This document shows, piece by piece, positions 9,149-64,000 of a DNA stretch of 64,000 nt. Both the position numbers and the translations under genes were made by a program. The notes under the pieces are model-generated. The model had not been told where the DNA came from, did no database searches, and saw nothing but the letters and a program-made list of their open reading frames with translations. Every line of letters begins with the position of its first letter. The stretch's first letter is position 1. This stretch comes from a bacterium (GTDB lineage Bacteria > Gemmatimonadota > Glassbacteria > GWA2-58-10), in the NCBI GenBank assembly GCA_021372515.1, contig JAJFUG010000045.1:1-64000 (forward strand), written 5' to 3'.

Positions 9149-10117
9149 TCAGCCCGGCAGGCCGCGTTCCAGCTCGCGGCGGGTCTTGAGGTAGCGCCGC
9201 CGCAGGCTGTCCAGCTCGAAGTCACTTAGGTTGTCCCGCACCTGGCGGATCTGCGCTGCCACAGACTCCAGCTCGTCGCGCGAGCCGGCACGGGTCAGGC
9301 GCTCGTGGAAAGCCAGGCAACGCTGGCTCAACGGCGGCTGGGTCAGGCGTGCCACCTGGTGGAAAGTGCGGCGGTGGATCGGGCAGGAGCCGAGCTGGCG
9401 CAGGGCAGCCTCGTGGTCAGGCGTGCAGTAGCCCTTGTGGCGGGCGAAACCGTAGCCCGGGTACTGGCTGTCGTACTGTTTCATCAGGCGGTCCCGGGTG
9501 ACCTTGGCCACCACCGAGGCCGCGGCGATTGACAGGCATTTGGCGTCCCCGCCGATCACCGCCTCCTGCGGGCAACCCAGGCGCAGCACCATCGGGCCGT
9601 CCACCAGCACGGCGTGCACGGGGAGCCCGCCCAGGGCCTTCACCGCCAGGTACATGGCCTTGAGGCTGGCCTGATGGATGTTCAGGCGGTCGATCTCGTC
9701 GCTCTCGACCTGCCCCACCCCCACCGCAGCCGCGCGAGCATGGATCAGGTCGAAAAGCTCCTCGCGCCGGGCCTCGTCCAATTGCTTGGAGTCGCGCGCG
9801 GGCGGATAGTCGCACCCCGGCGGGAACACCACCGCCGCGGCCACTACCGGCCCGGCCAGCGGCCCGCGTCCGGCCTCATCCACCCCGGCCACGTTCGTGA
9901 GGCCCCGGGCGTGGAACGAGTGTTCCAGCTCCAGCATGCGCGCCTGTTCCGCCTCATGCCGCCGCCGCCGCTCCCGCCGGGCAGTCGCCGCCGCGGCCAG
10001 GGCACGCACCCCGGCGCGGCTGTCGCGGCTCAGGGCCTCGATCAGGCTGTCATCCACCTGCTCCTGCGCGCCCAGCCAGTCGCGGATCGCGGCCAGGCTC
10101 AAATCCGAAAAATCCAT
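9149..10117 (-). CDS. rnhB: ribonuclease HII
   Basis: 322 residues; removes ribonucleotides and RNA primers from RNA-DNA hybrids. The catalytic core is complete: GVDEAGRGPLAGPVVAAAV (first acidic pair), a DSKQL loop, HAVLVDG (third Asp) and the GGDAKCLSIAAASVVAKVTRD segment. It is longer than the usual roughly 200-residue enzyme: about 75 residues precede the core, rich in Ala, Arg and Glu (HEAEQARMLELE just before it), and about 60 charged helical residues follow. Both tails look alpha-helical and are unlike the catalytic fold. It follows rplS in the usual ffh-trmD-rplS-rnhB order, but a terminator and palindromic repeats separate it from rplS. Confidence 0.93.
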   Translation of the reverse strand: MDFSDLSLAAIRDWLGAQEQVDDSLIEALSRDSRAGVRALAAAATARRERRRRHEAEQARMLELEHSFHARGLTNVAGVDEAGRGPLAGPVVAAAVVFPPGCDYPPARDSKQLDEARREELFDLIHARAAAVGVGQVESDEIDRLNIHQASLKAMYLAVKALGGLPVHAVLVDGPMVLRLGCPQEAVIGGDAKCLSIAAASVVAKVTRDRLMKQYDSQYPGYGFARHKGYCTPDHEAALRQLGSCPIHRRTFHQVARLTQPPLSQRCLAFHERLTRAGSRDELESVAAQIRQVRDNLSDFELDSLRRRYLKTRRELERGLPG

Positions 10118-10142: not shown

Positions 10143-10194
10143 GTAGGGGCGGACCCATGTGTCCGCCCGGGCGCACACGCGGGTGCGCCCCTAC
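10143..10194. repeat. 52-bp double-palindrome (REP/BIME-like), copy 1
   Basis: Structure: GTAG, hairpin A (GGGCGGAC, loop CCATGT, GTCCGCCC), hairpin B (GGGCGCAC, loop ACGCGG, GTGCGCCC), CTAC. Each hairpin has a perfect 8-bp stem and a 6-nt loop. The GTAG at each outer 5' end is the hallmark tetranucleotide of REP elements, so this reads as two REPs in inverted orientation. It is the exact reverse complement of the copy at 53403-53454. It lies between rnhB and rplS. Confidence 0.85.
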
Positions 10195-10267
10195 AACAAC
10201 CGGAAGCTCATCGGGTATAGCATCTTTCCACCGGCGCGGCCCCCAGTGGCCGCCCTCACGGCATCGA

Positions 10268-10293
10268 GGGCAGGCACAGGGGCCTGCCCCTAC
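10268..10293 (-). repeat. 26-bp half-element (solo REP-like hairpin)
   Basis: GGGCAGGC, loop ACAGGG, GCCTGCCC, then CTAC: exactly half the size of the 52-bp element, with the same 8-6-8 hairpin plus tetranucleotide plan but different stem bases that remain fully paired. It lies 74 bp from copy 1. Confidence 0.75.
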
Positions 10294-10398: not shown

Positions 10399-10752
10399 CT
10401 ACTGGATGTTGCGCTCCGTGATACGGGCCGCCTTACCGGTCAGCTTGCGCAGGTAGTAGAGCTTGGCCCGGCGCACTTTACCGCGGCGCACCACCTCCAG
10501 GCCCTCCACGATCGGGCTGTGCAGCGGGAAAATACGCTCCACGCCCACACCGCCGGAAATCTTGCGCACGGTGAAAGTCTCGTTGATCCCGCCGCCGCGG
10601 CGGCCGATCACCACGCCCTCGAACACCTGGATGCGCTCCTTGTTGCCCTCGCGGACCCAGGTGCGCACCCGGATCGTGTCTCCGGGACCGAACTCCGGGA
10701 TGGCCTCAGGTTTCTTGAGGAACTCTTTCTCGATCTCGGTGAATTTGTTCAT
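10399..10752 (-). CDS. rplS: 50S ribosomal protein L19
   Basis: 117 residues, full-length bL19. Hallmarks include [53 protein letters not shown] and the C-terminal [21 protein letters not shown]. It sits at the 30S-50S interface of the ribosome. The start ATG at 10752 is preceded by GAGGG. It is downstream of trmD as in many bacteria, but a 180-bp gap with its own promoter lies between them. Confidence 0.97.
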
Positions 10753-18880: not shown

Positions 18881-19011
18881 TCCCGCCTCCTTTATGGCGC
18901 TTGCCGTGTCGACAGCATATCTCTTGACAAAGAAACCTCGAACCGTGCGGGGCATGGCGCGGCGTGCCCTTGCGCCGATCCGATGGTTTGAAGCGCCGGT
19001 GTGCTTTTCAT

Positions 19012-19063
19012 GTAGGGTCGCACCCATGTGTGCGACCGGGCGGACACATGGGTCCGCCCCTAC
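19012..19063. repeat. 52-bp double-palindrome (REP/BIME-like), copy 2
   Basis: GTAG, hairpin (GGTCGCAC, loop CCATGT, GTGCGACC), hairpin (GGGCGGAC, loop ACATGG, GTCCGCCC), CTAC. The left stem differs from the other copies by paired changes that keep all 8 base pairs. It sits between the zinc-ribbon gene and bshB1; the rest of 18881-19110 shows nothing else. Confidence 0.85.
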
Positions 19064-19110: not shown

Positions 19111-19833
19111 TCAGATCGATTTCACACCCATGCTAACAATATCATCCACCCGCACAGTCTCGCGGGTGAGGAAAGGCTCGCCGTAGAGCGCGCGTATCTG
19201 CGAGCCGTAGTGCAGGGCGTGGGTCCGCAGAAGCTCGAACAGCGGCTGGCCGTTGGGGAACAGCTCCCCCGCCTCGACCCGTCCCTCGAACTGGCTGGCG
19301 AAACATTGCACAGCCTGGAGCTTGCGCTCGAACTGGGCGCTGATGTCCACCACGAAAGTCGGCTTGCCGCCGTGCTCGATGAAGCTCAAGGGGTGGAGGA
19401 TCTTTTCCGGCCGGACCGGCTCGCCCTCGCCGGGGACATTTTTCAGCCCGGCCAGGAAAGCCGCGGCCCGGCCGAGGCTGGCGGCGGTCTCGTGGTCGGG
19501 GTGACGGCTGCGCCAGTGGGGCAGGATCAGCACCCGCGGCCCCAGGCGTCTGATTGCGCGGGCCAGGACAAGGCGCGAGTCCTGGTCATCCTGAAGAGCG
19601 GCATCCGGCAGGCCAAGATTCTCCCGCACCGCCAGCCCCATCACCTCCGAGGCCGCCTCGGCCTCGCGGCGGCGCAGAGCGGAATCCCCACGGGTCCCGG
19701 TCTCCCCTCCGGTCAGATCGAGCACTCCCACCCGGTAGCCGGCATCCGCCATGCGGATCAGGGTCCCGCCGCAGGTCAGCTCGGCGTCATCCGGGTGGGC
19801 CACCACGGCCAGAACATCGAGAGATTTGGTCAC
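19111..19833 (-). CDS. bshB1: bacillithiol biosynthesis deacetylase BshB1
   Basis: 240 residues, LmbE/PIG-L fold. The zinc motif AHPDDAEL near the N-terminus, GCGGT-type loop (LTCGGTLIRMADAGYRVGVL), LTGGETGTRGD and HPDHETAA (metal-binding His) identify the family. The C-terminal GQPLFELLRTHALHYGSQIRALYGEPF fits the BshB1 branch, which deacetylates GlcNAc-malate to GlcN-malate. That would imply the cell makes the thiol bacillithiol; bshA and bshC are not in this window. Alternatively it is another GlcNAc deacetylase. AAGGAG precedes the start. Confidence 0.85.
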   Translation of the reverse strand: MTKSLDVLAVVAHPDDAELTCGGTLIRMADAGYRVGVLDLTGGETGTRGDSALRRREAEAASEVMGLAVRENLGLPDAALQDDQDSRLVLARAIRRLGPRVLILPHWRSRHPDHETAASLGRAAAFLAGLKNVPGEGEPVRPEKILHPLSFIEHGGKPTFVVDISAQFERKLQAVQCFASQFEGRVEAGELFPNGQPLFELLRTHALHYGSQIRALYGEPFLTRETVRVDDIVSMGVKSI

Positions 19834-51997: not shown

Positions 51998-53287
51998 TCA
52001 ACCGTCCCGGCCGGGTCCGGCCAGCGCACCCAGGGGGTCGGCGGTCAGCGCCGACTGCTCCAGAGTGACCTGAGTCCCGCCGGCCAGGTCCTTGACCACG
52101 ATCCTCCCGGCGGCCTGTTCGCTCTCGCCCAGGATCAGGGCGTGGGAAAGCTTCAGGTTGTCCGCCTGGCGCATCTGGGCTTTCAGGCTGCGCGGCTCGG
52201 GGTCCAGCTCCACCCGCACGGAATTGCGAAGCTGCCGGGCCAGCCGGACGGCGGGCTCGAGCAGCGTATCCCCCAGGTAGACCAGGTAAAAGCCCGGCGT
52301 ACGGGCCTCGGCCGCGGCCTGTGCGGCCAGTTGACTGTCCTGCGCCGCGGCCAGCAGCACGCGCTCCTCGCCCAGCGAAAAGCCGATCGAGGGCGTGTCC
52401 GGGCCGCCGCACTCGGCGATCAGACGGTCGTACCGTCCGCCGCCGCCCAAGGCCACCGAGCTGCCCAGCTCGCCGTGATGGTACTCGAACGCGGTGCGGG
52501 TGTAGTAGTCCAGGCCGCGCACCAGGCGCGGGTCCTTGACGAAATCGACTCCAAGCACCGTAAGCCAGCGCTGCACGGCCTCGTAATGGGCGCGGCTGTC
52601 GGGGCTCAGGCTGTCCTCGATGGGCGGGATACCCGCCGAAAGCTTCTGGCACGACTCCACCTTGCAGTCCAGCACGCGCAGGGGGTTCAGCTCCAGACGG
52701 GCCTGGCAGTCGGAGCAGAGTTCCTCCCGCCGCGCGCCGAAATAGCCGCGCAGCACCTCACCGTAGGCGGCGCGGGTCTCGGCGTCCCCCAGGCTGTTCA
52801 GGTGCAGGCTCAACCGGCTCACCCCGGCCGCGCGCAGGATGTCGCCCATCAGGGCGATCACCTCGGCGTCCACCAGGGGGTTGAGGCTGCCCACCGCCTC
52901 ACACCCGATCTGGTGGAACTGGCGGTAGCGGCCTTTCTGCGGACGGTCGTAGCGGAACATCGGGCCCAGATAGTAGAGTTTCTGCAGCGGCCGCTCGGTC
53001 CAGAGCCGGTTCTCGATGTAAGCCCGGATCACCGAGGCCGTGCCCTCGGGCCGCAGGGCGAACTCGCGCGCCTTGCGGTCGGTGAAAGTGTACATCTCTT
53101 TCTGCACGATGTCGGTCTGCTCGCCCACACTGCGCAGGAAAAGCTCTTTCTGCTCGAAGATCGGGGTGCGGATCTCGCGGTAGCCGTAACGCTCGAACAC
53201 GGCGCGGGAGGCGGCCTCGAGCGCCTGCCAGGCCGCGCTGTCGGCCGGGAGAATGTCCTGCGTGCCCCGTGGTGCGCTGTATTTCAT
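51998..53287 (-). CDS. hisS: histidyl-tRNA synthetase
   Basis: 429 residues, class II. It starts MKYSAPRGTQDILPADSAAW, motif 2 is GPMFRYDRPQKGRYRQFHQIGCE, followed by LVRGLDYYTRTAFEYHHGELGSSVALGGGGRYDRLIAECGG (His-A region, motif 3) and a C-terminal anticodon domain. AAGAGG precedes the ATG at 53287; the open frame continues upstream through a palindromic repeat, but that extension is not real. It forms a hisS-aspS pair, as in many bacteria. Confidence 0.97.
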   Translation of the reverse strand: MKYSAPRGTQDILPADSAAWQALEAASRAVFERYGYREIRTPIFEQKELFLRSVGEQTDIVQKEMYTFTDRKAREFALRPEGTASVIRAYIENRLWTERPLQKLYYLGPMFRYDRPQKGRYRQFHQIGCEAVGSLNPLVDAEVIALMGDILRAAGVSRLSLHLNSLGDAETRAAYGEVLRGYFGARREELCSDCQARLELNPLRVLDCKVESCQKLSAGIPPIEDSLSPDSRAHYEAVQRWLTVLGVDFVKDPRLVRGLDYYTRTAFEYHHGELGSSVALGGGGRYDRLIAECGGPDTPSIGFSLGEERVLLAAAQDSQLAAQAAAEARTPGFYLVYLGDTLLEPAVRLARQLRNSVRVELDPEPRSLKAQMRQADNLKLSHALILGESEQAAGRIVVKDLAGGTQVTLEQSALTADPLGALAGPGRDG

Positions 53288-53402
53288 CAAAGCCTCTTTG
53301 TACTTTCCTGGATTTATTTTTCGATCTTGGGCGCGGCCTGCCGTGCCCCAAAAACAAGTCAACTGCGAGCGGATCGGCTCAATTCGCGTTAATCGGATCA
53401 CT

Positions 53403-53454
53403 GTAGGGGCGCACCCGCGTGTGCGCCCGGGCGGACACATGGGTCCGCCCCTAC
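53403..53454. repeat. 52-bp double-palindrome (REP/BIME-like), copy 3
   Basis: GTAG, hairpin (GGGCGCAC, loop CCGCGT, GTGCGCCC), hairpin (GGGCGGAC, loop ACATGG, GTCCGCCC), CTAC. It is the exact reverse complement of copy 1 at 10143-10194, 43 kb away. It lies 26 bp downstream of the VanZ-like gene and may act as its transcript end. Confidence 0.87.
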
Positions 53455-53480: not shown

Positions 53481-53924
53481 TCACTCCGGGCCGATGGTGC
53501 TCTCGCTTTCCAGGACGGCGCGCGCCCGGCCGAACAGGCGCTGGCCTTTCAGCGCCAGCCAGGTCCAGGCAAACGCGAACGCCCCGGCGGAGTCGGCCAT
53601 CAGGTCCCAGATATCCGCCGTACGGTGCGGGACAAACATCTGGTGGAACTCATCGCTCAGGCCGTAGAGCACCGCCACGAGCAGGCAGAGCCAGTAATTG
53701 CGCCGTCGGCGCACCGTGCTCTGGTACGCGGCGCGCACCAGCAGCAAGCCCAGCACCCCGTACTCGATGAAATGGACCAGCTTGTCCTGGTGCCGGAAAA
53801 ACTTGAGGCGCGACACCGGTATGGGCATACTGCTCAAAGCGAATATCAACAGGAGCCAGAGCACCGGCAGCAGCCAGGGAACGAGCCGCCGTAGCGGGCA
53901 GCATTGAGGCCCTTTATTTGTCAT
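53481..53924 (-). CDS. VanZ-family membrane protein
   Basis: 147 residues, several TM helices. The VanZ pattern is clear: DKLVHFIEYGVLGLLLVRAAY and GLSDEFHQMFVPHRTADIWDLMADSAGA. The ATG at 53924 overlaps the rfbD stop by 11 bp, so it ends the rhamnose operon. VanZ homologues were first seen beside glycopeptide resistance; most have no proven role. An envelope role fits the context. Confidence 0.82.
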   Translation of the reverse strand: MTNKGPQCCPLRRLVPWLLPVLWLLLIFALSSMPIPVSRLKFFRHQDKLVHFIEYGVLGLLLVRAAYQSTVRRRRNYWLCLLVAVLYGLSDEFHQMFVPHRTADIWDLMADSAGAFAFAWTWLALKGQRLFGRARAVLESESTIGPE

Positions 53925-54801
53925 CCACACCCCGATACACGTTCAACAGCCTTTGCCGCTCCAGTCTCACGAAATCATCCAGGGCTTGTTCCCAGGGCCG
54001 CAGCGGCGCGAACCCATCCCGCTCCAGGCATTCCGAGGCCAGGGCGCTGTTGGCCGGACGACTCACCCGGCTCGGAAACGCCGTAGCTTTAACCCGTTTC
54101 AGTTTCACCGCATCGATTCCCAGCCGGCCAAACAGCGCCGCAGTCAGCCCGTAGCGGCTGCACGAGCCGCCGCCCGCCGCATGGTAGAGCGGCCCCGGGG
54201 CCTCGCATAGCGCGATGCCGGCCAGCAGGCGGCTCAGCTCCACGCTCCAGGTGGGGCTGCCGAATTCATCCTCCACCACGTTCAACTCGGTGCGGCCACG
54301 GGCGGCGCGCAGGATACGGGTGAGAAAATTCTGTCCGCCCGCACCGTAGAGCCAGGCCGTGCGCACCACGGTAAGACCCGGCAGCTCGCGGCGGGCCAGG
54401 AGTTCGCCCTCCAGCTTGGTCCGCCCGTAGACCCCCAGCGGCCCGGTCTGGTCCGATTCCACGTAAGGGGCGGCCTTGGCCCCGTCGAACACGAAATCCG
54501 TTCCGATCAGGATCATCCGCGCCCCAAGCGCGGCGCAGGCGGCGGCCACGTTGCGCGCGCCGTCGACGTTCACCCGCCGGGCGGCCTCCGGCTCGCTCTC
54601 GGCCCGCTCGACATCGGTCCAGGCCGCGGCGTGGATCACCACTTGCGGCTTTTCATCCGCCAGCAGGGCGCGCACCGACTCAGGCACGCTGATATCGGCC
54701 CGGTCGAGGTCCACGCCCACGGCGGTCAGGCCGCGAGCGGCCAGCTTCGGCAGAAGGTCATGGCCCAGCATCCCGGCTGCGCCGGTCACGAGCACTTTCA
54801 T
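53914..54801 (-). CDS. rfbD: dTDP-4-dehydrorhamnose reductase
   Basis: 295 residues. Rossmann loop VTGAAGMLGHDLLPKL, DRADIS, VIHAAAWTDVERAE, YGRTKLEGE (Tyr-Lys pair) and VEDEFGSPTW fit RmlD. It makes the last dTDP-L-rhamnose step with NAD(P)H. The ATG at 54801 overlaps the rfbB stop; the longer open frame is discarded as it lies in rfbB. Confidence 0.95.
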   Translation of the reverse strand: MKVLVTGAAGMLGHDLLPKLAARGLTAVGVDLDRADISVPESVRALLADEKPQVVIHAAAWTDVERAESEPEAARRVNVDGARNVAAACAALGARMILIGTDFVFDGAKAAPYVESDQTGPLGVYGRTKLEGELLARRELPGLTVVRTAWLYGAGGQNFLTRILRAARGRTELNVVEDEFGSPTWSVELSRLLAGIALCEAPGPLYHAAGGGSCSRYGLTAALFGRLGIDAVKLKRVKATAFPSRVSRPANSALASECLERDGFAPLRPWEQALDDFVRLERQRLLNVYRGVDDK

Positions 54802-59386: not shown

Positions 59387-61543
59387 TCAGAACCCGATGA
59401 TATCCTTGTCATCCCTCGGAATGATCCGTCGGGGCGCTTTTTTCTCCCCACTTCTGGTCCCCTCCTCCGGCTTGGCGCCGGGCCCCTTGTCCGGACGGCC
59501 CGGCGAGGGACGTTTGACCTCCAAAGGCCCCCGGCTCTGAACGGCGGGACGGTTGTCCGGTTTCTTCACGAGCCGGTCCGGCCTGGAGGGCGCCGCCGGC
59601 GAGGCGGCCCCCTGGCTGAGGCTGAACTCGGTCACCATCCGGGTGAGCCCCTCGGCCAGGGAGGCCAGTTCATCCGACTGGGCGTTCATGTTGCCGGCCT
59701 GGGCGTTCAGCTCCTCGGCCGAGCTGGCCGACTCCTCGGCGCCGGAGGCGTTCTGCTGGGTCACCCGGTCGAGCTGCGACACCCCGGTGTTCACCTGCTC
59801 GATCCCGGTGGACTGCTCAAGAGCCGCGGCCGCGATCTCGCTGACCAGGTCGTTCACCCGGCGGGTGCCCTCGGCGATTTCCTCCAGGGAGGCGGCCACC
59901 TCGGCGGTGATCTCCACACCGCCCTCGGCGTTGTGCACGGATTCCTCGATCAGCGCGGACGTGTCTTTGGCCGCCTGGGCGCTGCGCTGCGCCAGGGAGC
60001 GCACCTCCTCGGCCACCACCGCGAATCCCTTGCCCGCCTCGCCGGCCCGCGCCGCCTCGACCGCGGCGTTCAGGGCCAGGAGGTTGGTCTGGAACGCGAT
60101 CTCGTCGATGGTCTTCACGATCCGCGCCGTACGGTCGGAGGAGTCCTTGATCTTCATGATCGCCTCGCGCATGCGCTGCATGGAGAGGGCGCCCTTGTCG
60201 GCGCTCGCGCGCGCGGACATCGTCAGGCTTTTCGCCTGGTTGGCGTTGTCGGCGTTCTGCCTGGTCATCGCGGCAATCTGCTCCAGGCTGGCCGAGATTT
60301 CCTCCAGAGAGCTGGCCTGCTCGTTGGCCCCCGCGGCCAGGGCTTGGCTGCCGGACGAAATCTGCCCGCTGGCCGAATTCACCTGATCGGAGACCGTTTT
60401 CAGGTTGTCAACCGAATCGACGACCTCCCTGACAGTACCCGAAACCAGGCTCAGGGCCCTGCTAAGGGATTCGAGGGTCCGGTTGACATTGTCGCGCAGG
60501 TCGGCGAACTGCCCGTGGTAATCGCCCCCGACCCGGGGGGTCAGGTCCTTGGCCGCGGCTTTCTCCAGCACGCTCGAGGTTTCGTTGATCGGCGCCGAGA
60601 CCGCGACCAGCAAATCGTTCAGCCCCTTGACCAGCTCGGCGTAGCTGCCGTTGTGGCTGGAAACGTCGGCCCGTTCCTGCAGTCGTCCGTTAAGAGCCGC
60701 GTCGGTAAGACGGCCCAGGTCGGCGCTGACCTGCTTTATGGCCCGAATCACCTCGCGCAGCGAATCCGCCAGCATCCCGACTTCATCCTCGCGATGAATA
60801 TCGATCTCCTGATTGAGGTCACCCTCGGCGAGTCTACTGAGCCCTTTGCTGATAACGGTTATCGGATTGGAAATCCGGCGCGACACGAGGATAACCACCA
60901 GAATCACCGGGACTGTGGTGATGACAAGCAGCAGGATGTCCCGCCAAAGCAGCCCGCGCAAAGCTTTCTGGACATTTTCCAGAGAGATGTCGATACCCAG
61001 CAGACCATCCTGCCTGCCGTCGGCGGTAAGGATGGGTGCATAGGCGCTGAGAAAAGTCCCCCACTCGTCCGTATAAAAATCATTTTCGACCACCGCCGAG
61101 GTCAGACCGCCCAGCGACTGCTGCAACAGAGGCGGAGCATCCTCGTAGACATCGCCCAGATGTGACACTTGATCGGCGTTTTCCTCGGCATCCGCCACAA
61201 AGCTGGCCTGTCCTTTCTCGTTCCTGCGTATCGTGTAGACGAAGCGGATATCCGTACAGAAACCACGTATCCGCCGGAGAGCGGCGACCACCTGCTGGTA
61301 CGCCTCACCCCCCTCGTCCTCCTTCCGCTGCAACAGGGCGTGCTTTTCGGTCGGAAGGCTCAGCACGCCGAGGGCGACATAATCCCGAACGCGCGTGCGG
61401 ATATCCGACATCAGCTCTTTCTTCATCGACTGATAGGAAAGCAAGACCAGCAGACTCGATCCGGCCAGCCACAGGCAGATGAAGATCAACGCTATTTTCT
61501 TATCGATGCTCTTTATCGTAATCCGGCGTTTGAAAATGTACAT
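59387..61543 (-). CDS. methyl-accepting chemotaxis protein with periplasmic sensor domain
   Basis: 718 residues. An N-terminal TM ([21 protein letters not shown]), a periplasmic sensor of about 160 residues that looks PAS/Cache-like ([21 protein letters not shown]), a second TM ([18 protein letters not shown]), a HAMP ([20 protein letters not shown]), then a long helical signalling domain with tip [41 protein letters not shown]. The disordered tail ends [14 protein letters not shown], similar to the second MCP's tail. The ATG at 61543 has GGAGGG. The ligand is unknown. Confidence 0.92.
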
Positions 61544-62515: not shown

Positions 62516-64000
62516 TCAGAAGTCCTTGAAATCCTCGTCATCCAGCGGGATCAGAGACTTCGGGCTCTTTCCGTTACGCGGCGCCCCTGAGCCGCCGTTG
62601 TTGACCCGGTTGCCTTTCGAGAACACGCTCCGGCTCGCGAGGTTGCTCCCGGACAGGCGCTCCCGCGCGCCGGAATCGGAACCGGTGCGCCGGGCCGGCG
62701 GGAGGCTCGCCTGCGGCCTGACCGCCGGGGCGCTCTCGGCCTGATGGGTCAGCCTGAACTCCGCCACCTTACGGTTGAGGTTATCGGCCAGAGAACGCAG
62801 TTCGTTCGACTGGGCGTTCATGTTCTCAGCCTGACCGTTCAGTTCCTCGGACGCGCTGGCCGATTCCTCGGCGCTGGAGGCGTTGCGCTGGGTCACCTGA
62901 TCGAGCTGGGAGACGCCGGTGTTGACCTGGTCGATCCCGGTGGACTGCTCACGGGCCGCGGCCGCGATCTCACTGACCAGGTCGCTCACCTTGCGGTTGC
63001 CCTCGGCGATCTCCTCCAGGGCGGAGGCCACCTCGGCCGTGATCTGCACACCGCCCTCGGCGTTCTGCACCGAGTCCTCGATCATCTGGGCCGTCTCCTT
63101 GGCGGCCTGGGCGCTGCGCTGCGCCAGGTTGCGCACTTCCTCGGCCACCACGGCGAAGCCCTTGCCCGCCTCGCCGGCCCGGGCCGCCTCGACCGCCGCG
63201 TTCAGGGCCCGAAGGTTGGTCTGGAACGCGATCTCGTCGATAGTCTTCACGATACGCGCCGTCTTGTCCGAGGAATCCTTGATCTTGTTGACCGCATCAC
63301 TCATGCGGTGCATCGACTGTGTGCCCTTGTCCGCGCTCTCACGCGCCGCCAGGGACAGAACCTTGGCCTGATTGGCGTTGTCAGCGTTCTGCTTGGTCAT
63401 CGAGGCGACCTCTTCCAGGCTGGCGGAAATCTCCTCCAGGGAGCTGGCCTGCTCGTTGGCCCCCTCGGCCAGGGACTGGCTGCCCGCGGAAATCTGGCTG
63501 CTGGCCGAGTTCACCTGCTCAGAGGCGGTCTTGAGCTGATCCACCGAGGTGGCCACCTCGGACACGGAGGTCGAGACCAGGGTCAGCGCATCGTCCAGGG
63601 ATTCGAGGGTCCGGTTGACATTGTCGCGCTGGTCGGCGAACTGTCCGCGGTAATCACCCTTGACCCTGGCGGTCAGATCCTTGTCGGCGGCCTTTTCCAG
63701 CACGTTGGAGGTTTCGTTGATCGGCGAGGCCACGGCGCCCAGCAGCTCGTTCAGCCCCTTGACCAGGTCGCCGAAGCTGCCGTTGTGGCGTTCCAGCGCG
63801 GCCCGCTCGTCCAGACGGCCGTCCAGGGCGGCCTGGGTCAGGTGCGCCAGGTCACGGTTGACTTGATCCAGGGCGCCCACCACCTCACGGAAAGAATCGG
63901 CCAGCATGCCCACCTCGTCCTCGCGACGGATCTCTATGTTCTGCTTCAGGTCGCCCTTGGCCAGACCGCGGGCGATCTCGGTGATACGGATAATGGGCCG
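62516..64000 (-). CDS. methyl-accepting chemotaxis protein (partial, truncated by window edge)
   Basis: C-terminal part of about 494 residues. The reading frame continues to the window end: a HAMP ([21 protein letters not shown]) leads into the methyl-accepting signalling domain with tip [41 protein letters not shown]. The sensor part and start codon lie beyond base 64000. The tail ends [14 protein letters not shown], matching the neighbour's tail pattern. It is closely related to the MCP at 59387-61543 across the HAMP and signalling domain, which suggests an ancient tandem duplication. Confidence 0.93.

Follow-up and report, generated by a model that had tools for sequence, protein, structure and literature searches.

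REPs, BIMEs and RAYTs (REP-associated tyrosine transposases) are already known from earlier work (PMC2817692, PMC3116915, PMC3733652), and the way in which REPs are spread by RAYTs in vivo still awaits proof. TnpAREP enzymes of other groups process folded, single-stranded REPs, cut at CT, and rely on GTAG for recognition or guidance (PMC8266576). For group 4 RAYTs, we found no biochemistry in the literature. The presence of in-frame REPs within the RAYTs of TnpAREP subclass 2.4, which corresponds to Bertels group 4, was reported by Quentin et al. in 2018 (PMC6006769), and we therefore rejected the idea that such insertions are new. As described there, subclass 2.4 is found in many phyla, carries NH[IFV]H, WQ, and YIxNNP motifs, is associated with canonical-long and double-foot REPs, and has REPs in frame between HUH and Y.

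Herein we examine a 52-bp element with three copies in a window of 64,000 nucleotides, meaning the whole stretch of bacterial DNA that was analyzed. Judging from its sequence relationships, this element is very probably a non-autonomous mobile BIME or REPIN spread by a subclass 2.4 RAYT. The most probable cognate enzyme is encoded on contig C164 of the same genome, because its reading frame contains the identical 52 bp. This is a known kind of system in which enzyme and putative substrate are tied together by sequence identity. REPs and transposases are normally matched from flanking repeats, whereas here the candidate substrate is carried within the gene itself. What distinguishes this genome from subclass 2.4, as set out in the 2018 report, is that it holds two enzymes, each embedding the modal repeat of its own population. 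Our analysis also adds the prevalence of internal REPs among related genes, their match to flanking REPs, a split of two REP architectures along the RAYT tree, and apparently recurrent insertions in varied frames and orientations. In the main text of PMC6006769, we found no mention of REP architectures dividing along RAYT clades inside subclass 2.4.

Other described systems share some of these features. Like the GTAG REP super-family and the REPtrons, as portrayed in two reports (Di Nocera et al. 2013, PMC3733652; Nunvar et al. 2010, PMC2817692), the elements are GTAG-tagged palindromes that form head-to-head dimers, lie between genes and near RAYT genes, have compensated stems, and include a GTAG that provides a TAG stop codon. 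The present units, with a GGGCN4 stem and a CCNNGT loop, differ from the 24 GTAG REP families covered there in the zero spacer within the dimer. Pseudomonas REPINs (Bertels and Rainey 2011, PMC3116915) are likewise symmetric two-REP units that form a long hairpin and make up a dispersed, RAYT-tied population, but the RAYT group and the REP sequence are different for the window element. Intragenic REPs and the Rickettsia palindromic elements, as reviewed in PMC3733652, are also palindromic repeats read in frame in protein genes. However, those elements occupy many host genes, whereas the coding copy here is in the transposase itself.

Structure and abundance of the 52-bp element

A preliminary description of this window had interpreted the element as BIME-like. 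Its coordinates and sequences for the three copies were the same on re-reading, and each copy parses as proposed into GTAG, two successive 8-6-8 hairpins, and CTAC. The element is composed of two 26-nt REPs (GTAG-GGGC-N4-CCNNGT-N4-GCCC) arranged head to head with zero spacer, as follows.

10143..10194, + strand: copy 1, the 52-bp REP dimer in head-to-head form, which recurs unchanged inside the C164 RAYT
10143..10168, + strand: REP unit of copy 1 with stem GGAC and loop CCATGT
10169..10194, - strand: REP unit of copy 1 with stem GCAC and loop CCGCGT
19012..19063, - strand: copy 2, the same dimer in a compensated subfamily (GGTCGCAC half)
53403..53454, - strand: copy 3, the exact reverse complement of copy 1

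The inverted pair formed by copies 1 and 3 (10143-10195 and 53402-53454) is 100% complementary over 53 nt. Copy 2 keeps the same plan with a paired stem change, and the pair made with 19011-19063 reaches 92%. The half that carries this paired change (GGTCGCAC...GTGCGACC, including GTCGCAC) is also present on contigs C5, C37, C60, and C103, and copy 2 is thus a member of a shared subfamily. The foot-plus-stem string GTAGGGGC occurs nine times in the window compared to 1.7 expected, and none of 100 shuffles reaches nine. As single-stranded DNA, the 52-mers (both strands of copy 1, and copy 2) are predicted to form a single long imperfect hairpin of about -20.6 kcal/mol (z -3.5 to -5.4), as expected for a head-to-head REP dimer. 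Within the window, we found neither a match to an Rfam family nor a tRNA.

Copy numbers in the genome were obtained by pattern searches, with the unit pattern read backwards serving as the control. Many more copies are present, as the preliminary reading would have it: the unit GTAGGGGC-N4-CCNNGT-N4-GCCC gives 176 matches genome-wide at two or fewer mismatches, compared to 37 for the control. The exact 52-mer is found five times (C45:10143, C45:53403, C164:2762, C176:7192, and C206:6333). Homology between copies ends at 52-53 bp, such that the copies are GTAG hairpins rather than portions of a larger unrelated repeat. The REP/BIME interpretation therefore holds for this population, which consists of dispersed, high-copy, RAYT-associated head-to-head GTAG REP dimers (BIME/REPIN) that include inverted pairs.

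The inner stem, for which 256 sequences are possible, is one of only four in 97 of the 100 exact units listed (GGCC in 40, GGAC in 24, AGGC in 21, and GCAC in 12). Although these inner stems vary, full pairing is retained in 94 of the 100 exact units listed, which indicates that stems have changed on both sides. GGAC and GCAC units together make up the 52-bp dimer of the window, and a second dimer consists of GGCC and AGGC units about 9-12 nt apart. Further populations are double-foot palindromes. Five relatives from the same family (G001-G005) carry 84, 16, 20, 15, and 16 exact units, respectively, in other stem combinations and spacings, and the exact-unit search found none in five genomes of other families.

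RAYT genes that embed matching repeats

As previously noted, no RAYT lies within the window; RAYT-type HUH/Y1 genes exist elsewhere in the genome. A Pfam search revealed an ordinary IS200 TnpA on C18 and a single Y1 protein of divergent sequence on C159. Genes on C164 and C4 were added by a protein search, along with partial ones at the ends of C133 and C149. The Y1_Tnp match on C18 (L001 1456-1896) was considered as a RAYT and rejected, given that it is a plain IS200/IS605 TnpA (NF033573, 151.5 bits). The gene of greatest relevance is located on a 3.9-kb contig in a draft assembly of 222 contigs.

G000:C164 2471-3064 (L165): C164 RAYT gene, with the 52-bp dimer inside

The RAYTs of this genome share the motifs NHxH or DHxH, WQRG, and YI..NP, which appear as MPNHFHG, LWQRG, and EYILNNP in C164 and as MPNHIHG, LWQRG, and DYILNNP in C159. 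By sequence, the family alignment has the TnpAREP 4er8 as its best relative of solved structure (E 6.8e-7), and the fold matches from Foldseek (IS608, ISDra2, and 4er8) indicate an HUH/Y1 fold. Both proteins score below the 80-bit cut-off of the NCBIfam model for REP-associated tyrosine transposases (NF047646), with 47.5 bits for C164 and 66.7 bits for C159. Removal of the insert leaves C164 at 44.5, and thus its low score is not caused by the insert. C164 also falls just below the Pfam Y1_Tnp cut-off (21.7 versus 23). Based on the motifs, the in-frame REP, and the HUH/Y1 fold, C164 and C159 are RAYTs that probably belong to TnpAREP subclass 2.4.

In the C164 gene, a 52-bp stretch with exactly the sequence of copies 1 and 3 lies in frame just after the HUH motif and is read as VGADPCVRPGAHAGAPLH. 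In the structural model of this protein (mean pLDDT 88), the stretch encoded by the REPs is predicted as a loop of low confidence linking the HUH strand (79-86) to the next helix (103-125). Because 52 bp is not a multiple of three, exact loss of the element would shift the present frame. A decayed dimer is located directly 3′ of the gene, where its GTAG supplies the TAG stop codon, whereas the internal dimer is perfect. The C159 gene carries the GGCC/AGGC dimer in frame, and this dimer is repeated just past the stop codon.

The units in the two linkers (GGCC.CCCTGT, AGGC.CCCTGT, GGAC.CCATGT, and GCAC.CCGCGT) are the commonest unit of each stem, representing 25, 19, 16, and 8 per 100 exact units listed, respectively. 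One loop variant aside, the four commonest stem-loop units in the genome are exactly those inside the C164 and C159 genes. By sequence, these two RAYTs match two repeat populations, and their coexistence in one genome offers a ready pair for a specificity swap in group 4.

The pieces at the contig ends are N- and C-terminal parts of RAYTs (L162, G000:C133 1-333, and L163, G000:C149 1567-1872, respectively) that have an ACGG palindrome in common. These pieces are possibly one RAYT gene that was split by the assembly at an internal REP.

Embedded REPs among related RAYT genes

Of 88 related genes, which represent about 25 named phyla, 68 have a GTAG/CTAC-tagged hairpin in the linker, compared to 0.08 expected from codon shuffling. 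Elsewhere in these 88 genes, tagged hairpins were found three times in the N half and once in the C half. At 20 of 38 testable loci, the internal arm reappears in a flanking REP (permutation mean 2.3, maximum 9 in 5000). Because the 80-locus sample is possibly biased toward enzymes that bear inserts, it was checked by a search of the phylum that left out the linker. Among the 27 scorable loci from that search, which also took in enzymes lacking nearby REPs, 12 have an internal REP and none has one elsewhere in the gene. Some RAYTs carry no internal REP despite having cognate flanking REPs.

A RAYT tree that excludes the linker falls into two halves (SH-aLRT 95). Perfect palindromes are found in all 30 REP-bearing genes of one half, and long-loop REPs of the window type are found in 35 of 37 in the other. 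The corresponding association of clade and REP architecture (30:0 versus 2:35) has a Fisher p of 5e-17, a value that ignores relatedness on a tree where most inner branches are weakly supported. This split between long-loop and perfect double-foot REPs provides a natural series for locating the residues that read the hairpin. Among REP-bearing genes, at least 29 changes of orientation and reading phase occur on the tree, a number that speaks for recurrent insertion or replacement and against a single insert passed on by descent. We rejected conservation of the encoded peptide as an explanation, since frames and orientations differ.

Why are REPs embedded at this site? The likelier explanation is that they are neutral passengers. 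A RAYT would scatter REPs, the loop after the HUH strand would be the only tolerant part of its gene, and in-frame insertions there would survive, such that an internal copy matches its enzyme solely because it derives from the repeat population of that enzyme. The placement of the REP segment in a predicted low-confidence loop of the C164 model, the numerous changes of frame and orientation, and the RAYTs that have cognate flanking REPs but no internal copy are all consistent with this explanation. Quentin et al. 2018 also hold that insertions may barely affect activity (PMC6006769). However, the observed prevalence far exceeds what, as a rough estimate, about 100-150 units per 4.9-Mb genome would place in a linker of ~100 nt. 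Moreover, internal stems are more often intact than flanking stems (80 of 92 versus 69 of 98, p 0.008), although units within one gene are not independent.

A more tentative proposal, which we consider rather unlikely, is that the internal copy is kept as a cis-acting site. By binding the hairpin within its gene or transcript, the RAYT would regulate itself, or it would use the hairpin as a donor. It is similarly doubtful, albeit conceivable, that the REP embedded in each group 4 RAYT gene is such a site for self-recognition or regulation that keeps the enzyme matched to one population. The prevalence, the intact stems, and the cognate match are in keeping with such a role, as are the change of the peptide while the palindrome is conserved and the perfect state of the C164 internal copy compared to the decayed copy after the stop codon. 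Yet the copy is missing from about a quarter of the genes, and also from close RAYTs with the same flanking REP. We lean toward neutral passengers over a maintained site. If the embedded copies were maintained, the substrate of an uncharacterized RAYT could be predicted straight from its gene.

Several loci have unusual arrangements. RAYTs at G006:C67 and G021:C101 (L223 and L224) have the double-foot REP GTAGGGGCGCAGCATGCTGCGCCCCTAC on both sides and no internal copy, and this REP occurs 34 times in the G006 genome and 25 times in the G021 genome. L220 and L225 carry GTAGGGGCGCAGCATGCTGCGCCCCTAC internally. In the linkers of L051 and L066, REPs seem to have accumulated, with multiple units (four in L066) or long inserts present.

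Probable spread of the window copies

When a region becomes single-stranded, as may happen during lagging-strand synthesis, its REP hairpins could fold. The RAYT would then recognize the stem, loop, and GTAG foot, cut at a nearby CT, and rejoin the strands, and the new copy would land in tolerant DNA, chiefly between genes. By analogy, the C164 enzyme may mobilize the 52-mer as published TnpAREP enzymes of other groups do, and the CTAC foot of the window dimers contains CT. Sequence comparison shows that dispersed elements are identical to the in-frame copy and lack common flanks, that the gaps of copies 1 and 3 are empty in relatives, and that two RAYTs match two repeat populations.

All three window copies are located between genes, and their flanking genes are co-directional. 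Copy 2 sits between a PIG-L family gene and a gene of unknown kind. The neighbors are as follows.

9149..10117, - strand: rnhB (RNase HII), downstream neighbor of copy 1
10232..10293, - strand: second kind of dimer, carried also by the C159 RAYT, with the AGGC unit intact at 10268-10293 and the GGCC partner decayed
10399..10752, - strand: rplS (ribosomal protein L19), upstream neighbor of copy 1
19111..19833, - strand: PIG-L family gene, upstream neighbor of copy 2
51998..53287, - strand: hisS, downstream neighbor of copy 3, with the ATG start read from the sequence
53481..53930, - strand: VanZ-like gene, upstream neighbor of copy 3

The gap between rplS and rnhB holds both copy 1 and the second kind of dimer. 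Three relatives from the family (G001, G003, and G005) retain the rplS-rnhB and VanZ-hisS gene pairs, and in each of them the GTAGGGG foot is absent from both gaps. The preliminary description had suggested a search for empty sites, and these relatives provide them for copies 1 and 3. Their rplS-rnhB gaps measure 162, 131, and 607 nt, respectively, compared to 281 nt in the source genome. By this comparison, copies 1 and 3 are lineage-specific in their presence. The nearest genomes represent other genera, and thus the empty gaps do not date the insertions.

Perfect identity and inverse orientation might also result if the two identical window copies arose by gene conversion or by a rearrangement within the contig, rather than by transposition. 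We regard this origin as improbable, because identity ends at 52-53 bp and three more identical copies are present on other contigs. Still less credible is that the elements are immobile and formed where they now lie, as terminators of transcription or as mRNA hairpins. They lie downstream of genes in co-directional gaps and are predicted to form strong hairpins, but identical copies have unrelated flanks and both orientations, no T run follows the hairpin, and one copy resides within a transposase reading frame. For copies 1 and 3, the gaps are empty in relatives, and no orthologous position was found to be conserved between genera.

The window also contains a 300-nt direct repeat (59605-59904 and 62737-63036) with 83% identity, which probably reflects two neighboring paralogous genes.
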